Shown here piece by piece: positions 12,151 to 62,718 of a stretch of 64,000 nucleotides of DNA. The first letter of the stretch is position 1, and each line of letters starts with the position of its first letter. Source of the stretch: Chryseobacterium sp. (lineage in GTDB: Bacteria; Bacteroidota; Bacteroidia; Flavobacteriales; Weeksellaceae); contig JAPUEB010000030.1 in the NCBI GenBank assembly GCA_027492795.1, positions 1-64,000 of the forward strand. Direction: 5' to 3'. The notes under the pieces were generated by a model. The model saw only the letters and a program-made list of their open reading frames with translations. It had not been told where the DNA came from and did no database searches. The position numbers and the translations under genes were made by a program.

Positions 12151-12327
12151 TACGCTAAAGTAAGAATTTTTGAAGAAAGGAGGGGCTTTATGAAAAATTT
12201 TAGTAAAAAAAATAAAAAAATTTGGATGATATGGTTTTTAAAGTATATCTTTGTCGCCTTTCATTTTTACTTTTTATTAGATTTATTTCAAACTGCACTG
12301 TCCATCAGGATTTTGCAGTTTTTTTTG

Positions 12328-12362
12328 GTGGTTGCTAGTTGCTTGTTTCTAGTTTTGCAGAA
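12328..12362. repeat. CAACTAG-type repeat, reverse orientation
   Basis: The stretch GGTTGCTAGTTGCTTG followed by TTTCTAGTTTTGCAG is the reverse complement of the tandem-word repeat at 59-98. It lies between the TrmH-family gene and the CBS gene. Confidence 0.5.
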
Positions 12363-23837: not shown

Positions 23838-24284
23838 TTACGAAAGCAGTTTTTTCGCCATTTCTGAGATGCTTTTTCCGTCGGATTTTCCGGCTAAACC
23901 TTTGGAAGCGATTCCCATTACTTTTCCGATTTCCTTCATGGATGCTGCTCCAGTTTCGGCGATTATTTTTTTGATTTCTGCTTCCAATTCTTCTGGTGAA
24001 AGTTGCTTTGGAAGGTATTTTTCAATCACTTTCATTTGCGCTTCTTCCACTTCCGCCAAATCATTTCTTCCCTGTGCAGAAAATTGCTCAAAAGAATCTT
24101 TTCGCTGCTTTATCATGCGTTGCAAAATGGCGATTTCCTGTTCTGCGGAAACTTCAGCGCCCTTAAATTCTGTTTTTGCCAACAAAATTTGCGATTTTAC
24201 AGCACGAAGAGCATCCAAAGCAACTTTGTCTTTCTCTTTCATTGCCGTAACAATGGCTGTGTTTATGGTTTGTTCTAGTGACAT
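23838..24284 (-). CDS. GatB/YqeY domain protein
   Basis: 148 residues from ATG 24284. A start 15 codons upstream would be encoded by a CTTTCGGC-family repeat and is rejected. The helical YqeY domain is complete: MSLEQTINTAIVTAMKEKDK, LQRMIKQRKDS, and GAASMKEIGKVMGIASK. It resembles the C-terminal tRNA-binding domain of GatB and is thought to be linked to tRNA metabolism, without a proven activity. It is the last gene of the ftsZ side of the block. Confidence 0.88.
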   Translation of the reverse strand: MSLEQTINTAIVTAMKEKDKVALDALRAVKSQILLAKTEFKGAEVSAEQEIAILQRMIKQRKDSFEQFSAQGRNDLAEVEEAQMKVIEKYLPKQLSPEELEAEIKKIIAETGAASMKEIGKVMGIASKGLAGKSDGKSISEMAKKLLS

Positions 24285-24297
24285 TTTATTTTTTGTG

Positions 24298-24384
24298 CTT
24301 TCGGCTTTCGGCAATATGCTTTCGGCCATTAATTAATAGTATTACAGCAACTGCTGAAAGCTAAAAGCCGACAGCAGAAAGCCA
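24298..24384. repeat. CTTTCGGC/GCTGAAAG inverted-repeat element
   Basis: CTTTCGGCTTTCGGCAATATGCTTTCGGCC words on the left and GCTGAAAGCTAAAAGCCGACAGCAGAAAGCC words on the right form an inverted pair between ftsZ and yqeY. Related pairs occur on both sides of the DUF2795 gene, at 52156-52270 and 52580-52676. Confidence 0.7.
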
Positions 24385-26266: not shown

Positions 26267-26283
26267 GTCTAATTTTATTAAAT

Positions 26284-26372
26284 GATAATTGATGAATGAT
26301 AAATGATTTTTTCTATTTGAATATTAAGTGACAAGAAACAAAAACCATTTATAGCTTATCACTTATCAATTA
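26284..26372. repeat. TGATAATTGAT inverted pair without a guest gene
   Basis: In the ftsZ-ftsA gap, words of the TGATAATTGATGAATGATAAATGAT type (about 26284-26308) are mirrored by TTATCACTTATCAATTAT (about 26356-26372). This is the same repeat family that brackets the four-helix-bundle gene at 36451-36816, here with only ~45 bp between the arms. Confidence 0.65.
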
Positions 26373-26375
26373 TTT

Positions 26376-28928: not shown

Positions 28929-29312
28929 TTAATCTTGCAATCCGTTTACAACTCTTTTTACTCCGTTTTTGAAAAGTGGTGAATGAAAGTTTAAAATCAT
29001 TCCCAATTTCAGTTTTGTTAATCTCAGATAGTTGCGAAGTTGAAAGCAGTAATAATCTGTAATTTCTGGAACGGCTTTGTTTTCTACAATTACTTTATCC
29101 TCAACCAGCATATCTACTCTAAAAGCTCTTTCTATTGTGAGTTCTTCATAAATTATTGATATTTCCTTTTGTCTCTCAACTTTTAATCCTGCTTTTTTAA
29201 GTTCATACTCCAAACATTGTTCATAAACACTTTCATAAAGACCTACTCCGAGTTTGCGATGAACTTTCATACCGCAATCAAAAATTATTTTTGAAATCTC
29301 ATTTTCAGTCAT
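28929..29312 (-). CDS. GxxExxY protein (PD-(D/E)XK-like)
   Basis: 127 residues with the family-defining GLYESVY motif (about residues 24-30), followed by YELKKAGLKVERQK, the core FRVDMLVEDKVIVENKA with its Asp and Glu-x-Lys, and the LRNYLRLTKLKLGMILNF segment. This family is PD-(D/E)XK-nuclease-like and very common in Bacteroidota; its function is unknown. The gene interrupts the dcw cluster between murC and ftsQ and is bracketed by direct copies of a repeat, so it looks like an inserted guest. Confidence 0.85.
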   Translation of the reverse strand: MTENEISKIIFDCGMKVHRKLGVGLYESVYEQCLEYELKKAGLKVERQKEISIIYEELTIERAFRVDMLVEDKVIVENKAVPEITDYYCFQLRNYLRLTKLKLGMILNFHSPLFKNGVKRVVNGLQD

Positions 29313-35151: not shown

Positions 35152-36393
35152 CTACCTCACTTTCAGCGTTATCAAACAGATAATTGCGAGCATTACACCT
35201 ACGATAATCATTCGGTTTACGATTTTGCTTTCGTGGAAACCTTCTTTTTGATAATGATGATGTAAAGGCGACATTTTGAAAAGTCGGTTGTTTTGGGCGT
35301 ATTCCAAACCGAATTTTTTCTTTCTGTATTTAAAAACCGCTACTTGTAGCATTACGGAAATATTCTCAATCAAGAAAATTCCGCAAAGAACAGGAATCAG
35401 CAATTCTTTTCTTAAAATAATTGCCAAAACTGCGATTGCTCCACCCAACATTAAACTTCCAGTATCGCCCATAAAAACTTGAGCCGGATAAGTATTATAC
35501 CAGAAAAATCCGATAACTGCACCTACCATTGCAACGGCAAAAATGGTGGTTTCGCCCATATTTGGAAGAAACATGATGTTGAGATAATCTGCAAAAATGA
35601 TGTTTCCAGAAACGTAGGCTAAAAATGCGAGCGTCAAAAGGATAATAGTGCTTGTTCCCGCCGCCAAACCGTCGATTCCATCGGTGATGTTTGCCCCGTT
35701 TGAAACAGCGGTTACAATGAAAATTACGATTGGGATAAAAATAACCCAAGCCCATTCTTGCTGACCCTCTTCGTCCATCCAAAACAAGATTTTGCTGTAA
35801 TCAAATTCATTATTTTTAAAAAACGGAACGGTGGAAACAGTTGCTTTTTCCGTGGGCATAAAGTTTTTTTCCACATTATTGCGGTTCACTATTTGAGCAT
35901 CTGCATACTTTCTTTTTACCGTAATATCGGAATGAAAATACATCGTAATCCCCACAATCAAGCCTAAACCGACCTGTCCGATAATTTTAAATTTTCCACT
36001 TAATCCGTCTTTATTTTTTTTAACTTTTTTCAGATAATCATCTATAAAACCAATCGCTCCCATCCATACTACGGTGATTATCAGCAACATAATGTAAACA
36101 TTGAAAACTCTAGTAAAAAGCAAAACCGGAATTAATGTCGCCAAAATAATAATCAAACCACCCATTGTCGGAGTTCCTTCCTTCTGTTTTTGTCCATCCA
36201 AACCAAGGTCGCGAACCAATTCTCCCATCTGTTTATTGCGCAGATAATTGATGATTTTTTTTCCGTAAGCCATCGCGATAATCAACGACAATAAAACCGC
36301 CATCGCCGCCCGAAACGAAATGTATCGGAACAAATTAAGCCCCGGAATGTGGATTCCGTGCGCTGTGAGATATTCGTATAGGTAGTATAGCAT
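35152..36393 (-). CDS. mraY: Phospho-N-acetylmuramoyl-pentapeptide transferase
   Basis: 413 residues, somewhat longer than the ~360 of E. coli because of an inserted segment after about residue 155 ([20 protein letters not shown] onwards), as in other Bacteroidota. Signature GTPTMGG and IDDYLK near residues 75-120, [14 protein letters not shown] near 245, and the late HHHYQKEG. About ten membrane helices. It joins UDP-MurNAc-pentapeptide to undecaprenyl phosphate to make lipid I. Confidence 0.96.
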
Positions 36394-36402
36394 TTTTTAT
36401 AA

Positions 36403-36428
36403 TTGATAAATGATGATTGATAAATGAT
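36403..36428. repeat. Left inverted repeat bracketing the four-helix-bundle gene
   Basis: 26 nt made of two TTGATAAATGAT-type units. It matches the reverse complement of 36822-36847 in 24 of 26 positions. Confidence 0.85.
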
Positions 36429-36450
36429 ATGCAATTCGACTTCTCAAATT

Positions 36451-36816
36451 CTATTTTTTTAAATCTTCCCCAAGTTTTTTCTTGTAGGCGGATGTTACAT
36501 TCAATATTTCGATTGCTTCTTTTTTAAATAATTCTAACAATTCTAAATTCTTCATCATATTTACTGCTTCTATTACTTCAAGCCAAAAAAGTGTTTCGTC
36601 TGCTTCCTCTACAACAATGCAAATTTTTGCATATTTCTCGTTGTTTGACCTTGCTCTACACATCGCTCTATAATTTGATGCGGAAGAACTTGAAGATTTG
36701 AAAATCTGTTTTCTTATAACAGAAACTTTATCTGAATATGGGAGTTCTGATAATTCATTAATGATGTCTATTGACAATTTCTTTGTTCTATCCGAAAAAA
36801 TCTTGTTATAATCCAT
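36451..36816 (-). CDS. Four-helix-bundle protein (23S rRNA intervening-sequence type), copy 1
   Basis: 121 residues, all-helical, with the family pattern: YNKIFSDRTKKLSIDI start, KSSSSSASNYRAM in the second helix (here KSSSSSASNYRAMCRARS) and EADETLFWLEVIEA in the third. The family was named for proteins encoded in intervening sequences of 23S rRNA genes and also includes the Avd protein of diversity-generating retroelements. No rRNA or retroelement lies here: the gene interrupts the dcw cluster between mraY and murE and is bracketed by 26-nt inverted repeats. Probably an RNA- or DNA-binding scaffold; function unknown. Confidence 0.88.
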   Translation of the reverse strand: MDYNKIFSDRTKKLSIDIINELSELPYSDKVSVIRKQIFKSSSSSASNYRAMCRARSNNEKYAKICIVVEEADETLFWLEVIEAVNMMKNLELLELFKKEAIEILNVTSAYKKKLGEDLKK

Positions 36817-36821
36817 CTCAA

Positions 36822-36847
36822 ATCATTTATCAATTATCATTTATCAT
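36822..36847. repeat. Right inverted repeat bracketing the four-helix-bundle gene
   Basis: Composed of ATCATTTATCAATT-type units; mirrors 36403-36428. The arm fits between the ATG of the four-helix gene and the murE stop. Confidence 0.85.
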
Positions 36848-36855
36848 TCATTTTA

Positions 36856-38325
36856 TTACTTTCCCATTAAATTCAAAAGTTCTGTAATAACTTCTTTATC
36901 GTCAAAATGGTGTTTTACGCCATTGATTTCCTGATAATTTTCGTGGCCTTTTCCTGCTACGAGAATGATGTCTTTTGGTTCGGCAAATTTTATTGCCATT
37001 TTTATTGCCTCTTTTCTGTCGGGAATTGAGGTGTATTTGCTGAAATTTTGCGGTTCTACACCGGCTTCAATTTCTTTTATAATTTCGTTCGGGTTTTCCG
37101 TTCTTGGATTGTCCGAAGTTATGATTGCCAAAGTTGATTTTCTGGAAGCAATTTTCCCCATTTCAGGGCGTTTTGCGTTATCTCTGTCGCCGCCACAACC
37201 AAAAACGGTGATTAATCTTTCGTTTTTTGTGCGAATTTCGTTGATGCTGTCCAAAACATTTTCCAAAGCATCGGGAGTGTGTGCATAATCGACGATGAAG
37301 AAAATTCCCGAGGGCGATTTTATGGTTTCAAAACGACCTTTCACGCGCTGAAGTTTTGAAATTGCCTGCAAAATGTCTTCTTCGTGGAAACCCAATTCTT
37401 TCGCTACGGCGAAAACCAACAACAAATTGTAGGCGTTGAATTTTCCGGTTAAAGTCGTCCAAAATTCTTTTCCGTTGAAGTTGAGAAGCATTCCGTTGAA
37501 GTCGGCTTCCAAAATTTTTCCGTGAAAATCTGCCAAAGTTTTCAGCGCGTAAGTTGCTTTTTTTGCTTTGGTGTTTTGAAGCATCACCGTTCCGTTTTTA
37601 TCATCCATATTGGTGATTGCTACTGCGTTTTCCGGAAGTTCATCAAAAAATCTTCTCTTTAATTTTAAATACTCATCAAAGGTTTTATGATAATCCAAAT
37701 GATCATGTGTAAGATTGGTAAAACCCGCGATTTTGAAATGCAGTCCTTCAATTCTGTTTTGGTGAATTCCGATGGAGGAAACTTCCATAAAAGCGTATTC
37801 ACAACCATTTTCCACGGCTTTTGCAAGTATTTGGTTCAAGCGCAAAATGTCGGGAGTGGTGTGTGTTGAAGGAATTATTTCATCCGCTATTCTGTACTCA
37901 ACCGTTGAAATCAACGCAGATTTAAAGCCTAAATTTTTAAAAACATCAAACAATAAAGTCGTTGCCGAAGTTTTTCCGTTGGTTCCGGTAATTCCGATAA
38001 GTTCTAGCTTTTCAGACGGATTTCCATAATAATTAGAAGCGAGTTGCCCCAAAGTTTTTGATGAATCTTTTACTTTGATAAAAGTTACGTTTTCAACTAA
38101 ATTTTCTGGAAGATATTCGCAAACAATGGCTTTTGCTCCTTTTTCAATCGCAGAACTAATAAACGAATGTCCATCGGAAACCGTTCCTTTTATGGCGACA
38201 TAAAGGGAATTTTCAACAACTTTTCGGCTGTCGAAAACGATTTCTGACACTTCGACTTCGCTCAGTGCAAGATTTCCGTGAGTTTCTAAAACGGGAATTC
38301 TGTTTAATAATTCTGTAAGTTTCAT
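36856..38325 (-). CDS. murE: UDP-MurNAc-L-Ala-D-Glu:meso-diaminopimelate ligase
   Basis: 489 residues from ATG 38325; the six extra codons upstream are repeat sequence. ATP motif ITGTNGKTSATTL and the late TSDNPRTENP, whose DNPR motif selects meso-diaminopimelate over lysine, so the wall is of the DAP type. It adds the third amino acid of the stem peptide. About nine residues near position 20-28 (NLALSEVEV) are encoded by a TTCGACTTCGCTCAGTG word that also occurs, inverted, at about 8250, so a small repeat seems to have entered in frame. Confidence 0.96.
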   Translation of the reverse strand: MKLTELLNRIPVLETHGNLALSEVEVSEIVFDSRKVVENSLYVAIKGTVSDGHSFISSAIEKGAKAIVCEYLPENLVENVTFIKVKDSSKTLGQLASNYYGNPSEKLELIGITGTNGKTSATTLLFDVFKNLGFKSALISTVEYRIADEIIPSTHTTPDILRLNQILAKAVENGCEYAFMEVSSIGIHQNRIEGLHFKIAGFTNLTHDHLDYHKTFDEYLKLKRRFFDELPENAVAITNMDDKNGTVMLQNTKAKKATYALKTLADFHGKILEADFNGMLLNFNGKEFWTTLTGKFNAYNLLLVFAVAKELGFHEEDILQAISKLQRVKGRFETIKSPSGIFFIVDYAHTPDALENVLDSINEIRTKNERLITVFGCGGDRDNAKRPEMGKIASRKSTLAIITSDNPRTENPNEIIKEIEAGVEPQNFSKYTSIPDRKEAIKMAIKFAEPKDIILVAGKGHENYQEINGVKHHFDDKEVITELLNLMGK

Positions 38326-38328
38326 AAG

Positions 38329-38365
38329 GCCCCTTTCCCCCAAGGGGGAGAAAGTCTCTAATAAA
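38329..38365. repeat. CCCCTTTCCCCCAAGGGGG element between ftsI and murE
   Basis: Begins at the murE start codon and continues with AGAAAGTCTCTAATAAA. Same family as the pair inside murG and those around the ftsL/rsmH junction. Confidence 0.75.
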
Positions 38366-43525: not shown

Positions 43526-43552
43526 TGGAGTAATTGGGAAATAGAGTGATAG
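43525..43552. repeat. Left inverted repeat bracketing the second four-helix-bundle gene
   Basis: ATGGAGT and ATAGAGTGAT words. Reverse complement agrees with 44028-44055 in about 21 of 28 positions. The arm starts at the stop codon of the hydrolase gene. Confidence 0.75.
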
Positions 43553-43623
43553 GGTGATTGATTTATAGAGTTGCTTGATTTAATTGTAGAAATTTTTGTA
43601 ATTTGTTATAAATTATTTTTTTT

Positions 43624-44013
43624 ATGTCAGCAATAAAATTTCATAAAGAACTTAAAGTTTATCAGGCTGCGTTTTCGACAGCAATGGAAATTTACTTTTT
43701 ATCAAAGAACTTCCCAAAAGAGGAAACCTATTCTCTTACAGACCAAATTCGACGTTCTTCTCGTTCTGTGTGTTCAAATATCACAGAGGCATGGAGAAAA
43801 AGAAGATACCCTAAATATTTCGAGTTTAAATTATCCGATTCTGAAGGTGAAGCAGCCGAAACACAGAATTGGTTGGATTTTGCTTTGGCTTGTGGATATA
43901 TTTCATCCGAAAAACATAACGAATTATATAAAAAATACGATGCAATTATTGGAATGATCGTCAACATGATAATTAATTCCGAAAAATGGACAATTAATAA
44001 TAAGGACAGCTAA
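43624..44013 (+). CDS. Four-helix-bundle protein (23S rRNA intervening-sequence type), copy 2
   Basis: 129 residues. Family pattern FHKELKVYQAAFSTAMEIYF start, TDQIRRSSRSVCSNITEAW (second helix, highly characteristic), and the SDSEGEAAETQNWLDFALACG third helix. Divergent from copy 1 at 36451 and closer to the classical family. It lies between the hydrolase gene and engB, bracketed by inverted repeats unlike those of copy 1. Not associated with rRNA. Function unknown. Confidence 0.92.
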   Translation: MSAIKFHKELKVYQAAFSTAMEIYFLSKNFPKEETYSLTDQIRRSSRSVCSNITEAWRKRRYPKYFEFKLSDSEGEAAETQNWLDFALACGYISSEKHNELYKKYDAIIGMIVNMIINSEKWTINNKDS

Positions 44014-44027
44014 TTTAACACTCATCT

Positions 44028-44055
44028 CCATCACTCTATCAGTCTATCACTCCAT
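44028..44055. repeat. Right inverted repeat bracketing the second four-helix-bundle gene
   Basis: CCATCACTCTATCAGTCTAT and following TCACTCCAT mirror the left arm at 43525-43552. It lies 18 bp before the engB ATG. Confidence 0.75.
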
Positions 44056-44073
44056 AACTCCCAAACTTAAAAC

Positions 44074-52579: not shown

Positions 52580-52676
52580 TTGCTTTCAGCTTTCGGCTTT
52601 CCGCAATCGGCTTTACAATGTAGTTTTTAGAAAAAAGTTAAAACGCTGAAGGCTCACTGCTGAAGGCTGACTGCCA
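52580..52676. repeat. GCTTTCAGC/GCTGAAGGC inverted element
   Basis: GCTTTCAGCTTTCGGCTTTCC at the left and CGCTGAAGGCTCACTGCTG at the right (from 52641) form an imperfect inverted pair between the epimerase and DUF2795 genes. Confidence 0.6.
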
Positions 52677-56593: not shown

Positions 56594-56690
56594 TGTTTTG
56601 TTTGAGAGTGGGAGAGTTTGAGAGTGGGAGAGTGGGAGAGTTTGAGAGTGGGAGAGTTGGAGTGTTTGGGAGTTTGAGATGGGTGGTTTT
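56594..56690. repeat. GGAGAGTTTGAGAGTGGGAG simple tandem repeat
   Basis: About ten imperfect GAGAGT/GGGAGAGT units. Related words occur at 18696-18726 and, reversed, at 60692-60734. They lie directly after stop codons. Confidence 0.7.
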
Positions 56691-60684: not shown

Positions 60685-60723
60685 TTTTTCCACAAACACT
60701 CAAACACTCCCACTCTCAAACTC

Positions 60724-62718
60724 CTAAACTCCCTTCAAAATCGCAATCTCATCCCGCAATTTCGCCGCCTTTATAAAATCTAAATTTTTCGCTGCTGTTT
60801 CCATCGCTTTTTGTTTTTCGGCGATGAGTTTTTCAACGTTTTCGTCGCCGTAAGTTGCGCGTTCTTCGGCAACTTGCTTCATAATTTCTTTTTGAGTGTA
60901 TTTTTCATCAGGGAAATCTTTCGCGCGACCAACCAATGCTTCCGAAATTTTCTTGTTAATTTGCGTTGGAACAATATTGTTTTCCTGATTGTATTGCATT
61001 TGTTTTTCGCGGCGATAATTGGTTTCGTCAATGGCTTTTTGCATCGAATTGGTCATTTTATCGGCATACATGATTGCTCTTCCATTCACATTTCTCGCAG
61101 CACGACCAACGGTTTGTATCATCGAACGGCGTGAACGCAACATTCCTTCTTTGTCCGCATCCAAAATTGCAACGAGCGAAACTTCAGGTAAATCCAAACC
61201 TTCACGAAGTAAGTTGACGCCAATCAAAACATCGAAAAGTCCGGTTCGTAAATCCTGCATAATTTGAATTCGTTCCAAAGTTTCCACATCGGAGTGAATG
61301 TATCGACAACGGATTCCGAATTTTGTGAAATATTTCGTGAGCTCTTCCGCCATTTTTTTGGTTAAAGTCGTCACCAAAACCCGTTCATCAATTTCCGCAC
61401 GTTTTTGAATTTCTTCCATCAAATCATCAATCTGATTAATGGTGGGGCGAATTTCAATAATCGGGTCTAAAAGTCCTGTTGGACGAATAATTTGTTCGAT
61501 ATATTCGCCGCCTGTTTTTTCCAATTCGTAATCGGCGGGAGTTGCGGAAACGTAAATCACTTGATTTTGCATTCCTTCAAATTCTTCAAATTTCAAAGGA
61601 CGGTTGTCCATTGCTGCAGGAAGTCGGAAACCATATTCTACCAACGCTTCTTTTCGACTTCTGTCGCCGCCGTACATTGCGTGAACTTGCGGAATAGTAA
61701 CGTGACTTTCATCTATCACCATCAAAAAATCTTTCGGAAAATAGTCTAAAAGACAAAACGGTCTTGAACCGGGCAATCTTCCGTCCAAATATCTGGAGTA
61801 ATTTTCAATTCCGGAGCAATAGCCGAGTTCTTTTATCATTTCCAAATCGAGTTCGGTTCGTTCCTGTAAACGTTTGGCTTCCAATGGTTTTTCAATTTCT
61901 TCAAAAAAATGAACCTGCTTCACCAAATCATCCTGAATTTCTCGAATCGCCCCGTGCAAAGTTTCTTTTGAAGTCACAAATAAATTTGCAGGATAAATTT
62001 GAATTTGGTCAAAATTGGACAAAACATTGCCGGAAATCGGATCAAAAGTTTGAATTTTTTCAATTTCGTCGCCAAAAAACTGTACACGAATCGCATTGTC
62101 GGCATAAGCCGGATAAACATCTATCACATCTCCTTTCACACGAAACGTGCCGCGCTGAAACTCATTTAATGTTCTCGCATACAATGCATTAACTAGAGAA
62201 TGAAGAAAAGCCGTTCTCGTAATTTTGCTGCCAATTTCTATGGAAACCAACGATTTATGAAATTCGCTCGGATTTCCGATACCGTAAATGCAGGAAACCG
62301 AAGCCACAATCAAGACATCACGACGACCGGAAAGCAAACTCGCCGTTGCTGAAAGTCGCAATTTTTCCACTTCTTCGTTGATGGAAAGGTCTTTTTCTAT
62401 ATACGTTCCAGACGATGCGATATACGCTTCCGGTTGGTAATAATCGTAATAAGAAACGAAATATTCCACCGCATTTTCTGGAAAAAACTCCTTGAACTCC
62501 ATAAAAAGTTGCGCCGCCAAAGTTTTGTTGTGCGCCAAAACAATCGTTGGTCGCTGAATATTATTCACAACATTGGCGATGGTAAACGTTTTTCCAGAAC
62601 CGGTAACGCCGAGCAAAGTTTGGTATTTCTCGCCGATTTCTATGCCATCGGTAAGTTGTTCAATGGCTTTTGGTTGGTCGCCGGTTGGTTGGAATTCGGA
62701 TTGGAGGTTGAATTTCAT
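60724..62718 (-). CDS. uvrB: Excinuclease ABC subunit B
   Basis: 664 residues from ATG 62718; the nine extra codons upstream read through an AACCACAAAAG arm. Helicase motif I GVTGSGKTFTI, the beta-hairpin region VSYYDYYQPEAY, motif II VIDESH, motif III VSATPADYE, motif VI QTVGRAARN and a C-terminal UVR domain (MEKLIAEKQKAMETAAK onwards region ending AAKLRDEIA). It verifies lesions in nucleotide excision repair with UvrA and UvrC. A TACTTTTG -7-like element lies at 62774-62781. Confidence 0.96.
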   Translation of the reverse strand: MKFNLQSEFQPTGDQPKAIEQLTDGIEIGEKYQTLLGVTGSGKTFTIANVVNNIQRPTIVLAHNKTLAAQLFMEFKEFFPENAVEYFVSYYDYYQPEAYIASSGTYIEKDLSINEEVEKLRLSATASLLSGRRDVLIVASVSCIYGIGNPSEFHKSLVSIEIGSKITRTAFLHSLVNALYARTLNEFQRGTFRVKGDVIDVYPAYADNAIRVQFFGDEIEKIQTFDPISGNVLSNFDQIQIYPANLFVTSKETLHGAIREIQDDLVKQVHFFEEIEKPLEAKRLQERTELDLEMIKELGYCSGIENYSRYLDGRLPGSRPFCLLDYFPKDFLMVIDESHVTIPQVHAMYGGDRSRKEALVEYGFRLPAAMDNRPLKFEEFEGMQNQVIYVSATPADYELEKTGGEYIEQIIRPTGLLDPIIEIRPTINQIDDLMEEIQKRAEIDERVLVTTLTKKMAEELTKYFTKFGIRCRYIHSDVETLERIQIMQDLRTGLFDVLIGVNLLREGLDLPEVSLVAILDADKEGMLRSRRSMIQTVGRAARNVNGRAIMYADKMTNSMQKAIDETNYRREKQMQYNQENNIVPTQINKKISEALVGRAKDFPDEKYTQKEIMKQVAEERATYGDENVEKLIAEKQKAMETAAKNLDFIKAAKLRDEIAILKGV

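Follow-up and report, generated by a model that had tools for sequence, protein, structure and literature searches.

The window analysed here, a 64,000-nt stretch of a Chryseobacterium sp. contig (JAPUEB010000030.1), carries murE (36856..38343) and mraY (35152..36393) as consecutive cistrons on the minus strand, with a small ORF of 121 aa (36451..36816) on the same strand between them. The downstream cistron, mraY, was assigned from its ORF, and the upstream cistron, murE, from its ORF and position; murE served as the reference for reading the junctions described below. The small ORF encodes a four-helix-bundle protein of the type known from intervening sequences (IVSs) of 23S rRNA, as a sequence-only reading of this DNA had proposed. 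Its match to TIGR02436 scored 60.4 bits, above the cut-off of 24, and its match to Pfam 23S_rRNA_IVP scored 30.7 bits, under the cut-off of 33.8. No rRNA was detected in the window by Rfam, so that the element sits outside any rRNA gene.

An inverted-repeat search and 7-nt periodicity placed one arm on each side of the ORF, namely the 5' arm in the sense direction at 36819..36851 and the 3' arm at 36399..36431, both on the minus strand. Once reverse-complemented, positions 36404-36431 and 36819-36846 were identical at 26 of 28 bases, so that the inverted flanks claimed earlier (24 of 26 bases) are real and longer than described, and the alignment score of the arms was 23 compared with a maximum of 13.5 in 200 shuffles. 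The earlier reading had not noticed what the arms are made of: each consists of heptads in tandem (TGATAAA.TGATAAT.TGATAAA...), the 3' arm being an inverted TGATNNN array, with the G-strand of the 5' arm directed inward. The lag-7 run in the 5' arm (36822-36851) scored 16.4. When the sense transcript was folded, the arms paired and enclosed the ORF, in agreement with the stem previously predicted around the whole gene, and none of 100 shuffles was equally stable (z -3.4). The 5' arm begins directly past the murE stop codon and the 3' arm stops a few bases short of the mraY start codon; the element thereby fills the murE-mraY spacer.

The murE-mraY spacer in related genomes

We then compared this junction across the family, where mraY gave matches in 146 of 148 genomes and 88 mraY-murE junctions were read. 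About 58 of these were empty, usually with 6-80 nt, and they provide the clean empty junctions that the sequence-only reading had proposed to look for. The focal four-helix subfamily was present in 8 of the 88, another four-helix subfamily, which has arms of its own (ATTTAAAGATT type), in 10, and gene-less joined TGAT arms in about six (four found by script; L058 and L102 by eye). Six junctions from several genera (L036, L039, L067, L089, L098 and L101) contained a small gene that is unrelated, encodes a membrane protein and has no arms. When a tree was built from the murE tail (330 columns), supported sister pairs and sister species differed in junction state, indicating that the content of the spacer turns over, in a manner that does not separate gain from loss. 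This spacer is a general hot spot.

Among 19 relatives of the focal subfamily at this junction, 18 keep TGAT-heptad arms, so that the pattern named beforehand as counter-evidence, a gene without flanking repeats, is confined to the lone exception L281, which has no recognisable arms. Relatives of the focal subfamily are also found at two or more other loci, with arms that are similar or different. No near-identical copies were found at two places, the highest identity between loci being 77% nt, and no target duplication was recognised at the mraY-murE junctions.

The four-helix ORF is under strong purifying selection, with dN/dS of 0.03-0.19 (0.07-0.19 for the mraY-murE orthologues). As for the arms, TGATNNN is common to the mraY-murE elements of all species but one, and the NNN varies. 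In the 19 mraY-murE elements, the match between arms was 18.8 within an element vs 16.7 between species, so that base-by-base coevolution of the two arms was barely visible. Separately, arm mismatches in the sense RNA had no G-U bias (49 vs 47). Given the lack of a G-U excess and arms that are hardly better matched within an element, selection on pairing is not visible at the level of individual base pairs.

Repeat arrays around four-helix genes

The survey sample comprised 103 four-helix loci, 13 from the genome of the window and 90 from across Bacteroidota, and 51 ordinary window genes and 39 E. coli genes were used as controls for flank arrays. The murE-mraY frame is not a one-off, and nearly all genes of the four-helix family are framed likewise. 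Specifically, flanking arrays of 7- or 8-nt units were present at 88 of the 103 four-helix genes (7-nt, 69; 8-nt, 19), the other 15 having no clear array of this kind, whereas such an array was near 16 of the 51 ordinary window genes and 1 of the 39 E. coli genes. Arrays on both sides were found at 57 of 103 four-helix genes vs 5 of 51 window genes (p 2e-8) and 0 of 39 E. coli genes. Where two-sided arrays shared a unit, the orientation was inverted in 51 and direct in 3 (L012, L123 and L217), and the arms of these three could therefore not pair. Within the genome of the window, inverted arrays frame 12 of the 13 four-helix genes and direct arrays the remaining one, and the unit varies from gene to gene.

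Autocorrelation of the flanks was 0.58 at lag 7 and 0.60 at lag 14, compared with 0.32 in shuffled sequence, with a small rise at lag 8 and none at other lags; for 17 additional four-helix genes from five genomes, 7 or 8 was the best period among 6-9 in every case. Each array has 4-5 units, and the units differ between elements; the unit combines a conserved core with a free spacer, a pattern that resembles a repeated binding motif. The arrays are also polar, since G outnumbers C in the sense 5' arm of 55 of 60 elements, with the reverse in one, and the G-strand reads inward in 15 of 15 paired arrays from three unit families. The strand of the ORF was that of both neighbours at 81 of 101 loci vs 33 of 54 in the window (p 0.013), a baseline that comes from one window only and is inflated by its long operon.

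A second four-helix element in the window lies on the plus strand at 43552..44067, where octad arms (GTGATAGA) in inverted orientation enclose the gene (43624-44013); the 3' arm is at 44026-44067. This gene gave weak DivGenRetAVD and bAvd matches, in line with the relationship of its family to the four-helix protein Avd, an accessory protein of diversity-generating retroelements. Between ftsA and ftsZ, a lag-7 run and the sequence itself revealed a gene-less pair of inverted TGAT-heptad arms (26279..26373, without strand assignment) with the unit of the murE-mraY element; its RNA fold was weak (z -1.6). Other gene-less 7/8-nt arrays in the window are 56604-56679 with 60693-60732, 53-93 with 12325-12355, and 24284-24312 with 52582-52611. 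In the first two pairs, one unit recurs in inverted orientation 4 and 12 kb away, with ordinary genes in between. Between ftsQ and murC, a GxxExxY (PDDEXK_3) gene (28929-29312) has direct 28-nt repeats on its flanks, and across the phylum GxxExxY genes are often located between inverted or direct repeats, a parallel but different frame. We set these genes aside as members of the four-helix frame, as their periodicity is 9-10 nt and they have no G/C polarity.

Arrays are also dispersed through the genome of the window, with 55 exact TGATNNN array matches (0 for the reversed control), GAGTTTGA/GAGTGGGA octad arrays at about 30 loci and GCTTTCG arrays at about 12. For all three units many of the sites have no four-helix gene, and some dispersed arrays are compact inverted pairs with loops of 20-50 nt. 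An octad array was also seen at about 1470-1540 of L358, within the reading frame of a lipoyl-domain protein (dihydrolipoamide acyltransferase-like), in its linker. Another heptad, the reversed control TAGTNNN, has expanded in a single lineage: one genome (G060) had 59+50 matches, whereas most members of its genus had 0-3. As overlapping matches were counted, these may come from a few long arrays.

Intervening sequences of rRNA and elements in other phyla

On plasmid AZO_p2 of Azospirillum lipoferum 4B (L396), the LSU rRNA match (RF02541, 2468 bits) is interrupted by a four-helix ORF on the rRNA strand. The insertion is at LSU model positions around 1210-1220, which we take to be the loop of helix 45. 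It is bounded by inverted arms of CAGAGGA/CGGATGA heptads and folds with z -9.1. The proposal that the murE-mraY segment has the anatomy of an IVS placed in an mRNA operon is thus supported, because a true rRNA IVS has the same layout of inverted heptad arms and a same-strand four-helix ORF. More generally, 23S rRNA IVSs with an S23p/IVP ORF (Coxiella, Leptospira and Azospirillum) and elements of the focal type are alike in having a host-strand four-helix ORF in the loop of a stem, heptad arms, a length of about 430-470 nt and gene-less short versions. The focal element has ends whose inverted repeats can pair into a long stem, a four-helix ORF in the loop, heptad arms and a sporadic presence at an intact site, and differs in its host, as it occupies an mRNA spacer between murE and mraY rather than an rRNA gene, where the IVSs presumably occupy helix 45. 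The Coxiella IVS contains GACAGAT heptads in its 5' arm and a 28-bp stem that was cut by RNase III in vitro (PMC4990558). A further difference is that the ORF of the focal type is under strong selection, whereas that of the Coxiella IVS was reported to be decaying (PMC4990558).

The same inverted-array layout frames four-helix genes on cyanobacterial plasmids and in Gemmatirosa, Treponema and Riemerella, and thus extends beyond Bacteroidota to Cyanobacteria, Gemmatimonadota and Spirochaetota, plus the Azospirillum 23S rRNA. Altogether, the frame was found in dozens of four-helix relatives between ordinary genes in five bacterial phyla. An association of 23S_rRNA_IVP genes with cas loci has been published (PMC3936711, PMC10910872). 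In cas operons of cyanobacterial plasmids, a four-helix gene stands between inverted 7/8-nt arms in L395 and L403 (each between cas6 and cas4) and in L401 (between cas10 and cmr3), and the four-helix gene beside cas2 in L394 has no clear arms. IVS-like insertions, rather than a cas function, may explain why 23S_rRNA_IVP is associated with CRISPR loci.

Dispersed heptads have been described elsewhere. The accessible text of one study gives 70-75 convergent inverted pairs of GGGAATC heptamers per Xanthomonas genome (PMC4692102). Like arrays of the focal type, the Xanthomonas GGGAATC and Nostoc GGGGAYT arrays are, according to that text, dispersed intergenic heptads of about four units, and Xanthomonas also holds a four-helix protein, XCC0516; they differ in being described as G-quadruplex sequences, and the accessible text makes no tie to IVSs or four-helix genes (PMC4692102).

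Candidate explanations of the element

We consider, with a probability of about 0.6, that the segment is a hairpin element of the 23S rRNA IVS type that lies between operon cistrons and is probably cut from the mRNA by RNase III. Such an element would consist of two inverted arms of 4-5 heptads each with the four-helix ORF in the loop, and its gene-less versions of two arms with a loop of 20-50 nt. In the polycistronic transcript the arms would pair into a stem of about 28 bp, which a double-strand RNase (RNase III, by analogy with the Coxiella rRNA IVS, PMC4990558) may cut. The cleavage would separate the murE mRNA, the element and the mraY mRNA, and by freeing the two host messages it would make the insert nearly harmless. 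Less certainly, the four-helix protein, a relative of the Avd/XCC0516 type, may bind the heptad arrays, which would explain a unit of 7-8 nt with a fixed core and a free spacer. The sequence-only reading had described a mobile RNA-processing element that removes itself from the message; its anatomy and patchy presence agree with our observations, processing and mobility are what we infer, and no near-identical copies at two places were found. Several results weigh against the IVS-type reading, namely the lack of a G-U excess among sense-strand arm mismatches, the small advantage of arms within an element, the direct arrays at three loci, the 15 genes without a clear array, and the weak fold of the gene-less ftsA-ftsZ copy.

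Alternatively, the element might be a cassette that acts at the DNA level. The four-helix protein or a host recombinase would then recognise the inverted arrays as terminal repeats, the gene-less copies would be MITE-like derivatives, and the RNA stem would be a by-product. The same motif at both ends with its G-strand inward, the arrays of local elements' units at many loci, the existence of gene-less joined arms, the patchy site occupancy, and the lack of a G-U signature or base-by-base covariation of the arms would all fit such a cassette, which we nevertheless judge unlikely. The unit contains no transposase or recombinase, neither the near-identical copies elsewhere nor the target duplication of a transposon or MITE could be recognised, its ORF mostly follows the direction of the host operon, and an insert in 23S rRNA would still require RNA processing or tolerance. 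REP/REPIN-RAYT pairs and MITEs are likewise short inverted dispersed repeats, some of which flank a dedicated gene. Unlike RAYT, the four-helix gene is not a Y1 transposase, the units differ from copy to copy, and array-rich genomes are without a matching gene: in five TGATNNN-rich genomes, none of the 17 four-helix genes has TGATNNN arms. A RAYT-like link of the gene to dispersed arrays of its unit accordingly found no support in these five genomes, nor did a strict system of a resident gene and its own repeats.

We find it distinctly improbable that the element is a stationary regulatory unit, in which a four-helix pentamer binds heptads of its own message or DNA in a TRAP-like manner (one unit per subunit) and regulates either its own gene or those downstream, with no mobility. 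The fixed length and core of the unit, its free spacer and its 4-5 copies per array would suit such a protein, as would the purifying selection on the ORF and the match of a solved relative, 2gsc (XCC0516), which Lin et al. 2006 describe in their title (cited in PMC3936711) as an assembly of five four-helix bundles. In addition, whenever two relatives at different loci were at least 60% identical, they had the same unit length (38 of 38 pairs). On the tree, however, unit length clustered strongly when all rows were used (5 vs 17.4 changes) but weakly once relatives at least 55% identical were removed (5 vs 6.7), so that it is weak as a deep trait of protein clades and a shared unit length is claimed for close relatives only. 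The patchy presence at the same operon site among sister species and a protein net charge of only about +2 also speak against this explanation, which leaves gene-less arrays and rRNA insertions unexplained. Finally, we disfavour as very improbable the view that Bacteroidota spacers are rich in slippage-made 7/8-nt arrays among which four-helix genes merely live, since arrays do occur near 16 of 51 ordinary window genes and without a gene, even in the coding linker of L358, but two-sided arrays are concentrated at four-helix genes (57/103 vs 5/51), the same unit is inverted on both sides in 51 cases vs 3 direct with a fixed polarity, and the same layout recurs in the Azospirillum 23S rRNA, Gemmatimonadota, Spirochaetota and cas operons.

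Under the preferred IVS-type reading, hairpin elements seem to make up a much wider family, of which the rRNA inserts are a single case. To our knowledge, IVSs have so far been regarded as a curiosity of rRNA genes, and their origin is not known. A search of openly accessible journal papers found none that joins IVS arms, heptad arrays and four-helix genes; IVSs in rRNA were already known, and what is new here is an IVS outside rRNA, the heptad arms being the mark that unites the two settings. As a tentative and still doubtful extension, rRNA IVSs, the heptamer arrays of Xanthomonas, Nostoc and Bacteroidota, and four-helix genes could form one class of hairpins with 7-8 nt repeat arms, mostly placed between cistrons of mRNA operons, excised by RNase III and read by a pentameric four-helix protein, one unit per subunit. 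If the rRNA IVSs are the visible members of an inter-cistron family in many phyla, then the source and spread of these elements and the role of the four-helix protein would become testable in culturable bacteria. Such a family would also offer a plain reason for the link between 23S_rRNA_IVP and cas, as the three cas operons with clear arms look like any other copy, and its hosts would include essential operons.
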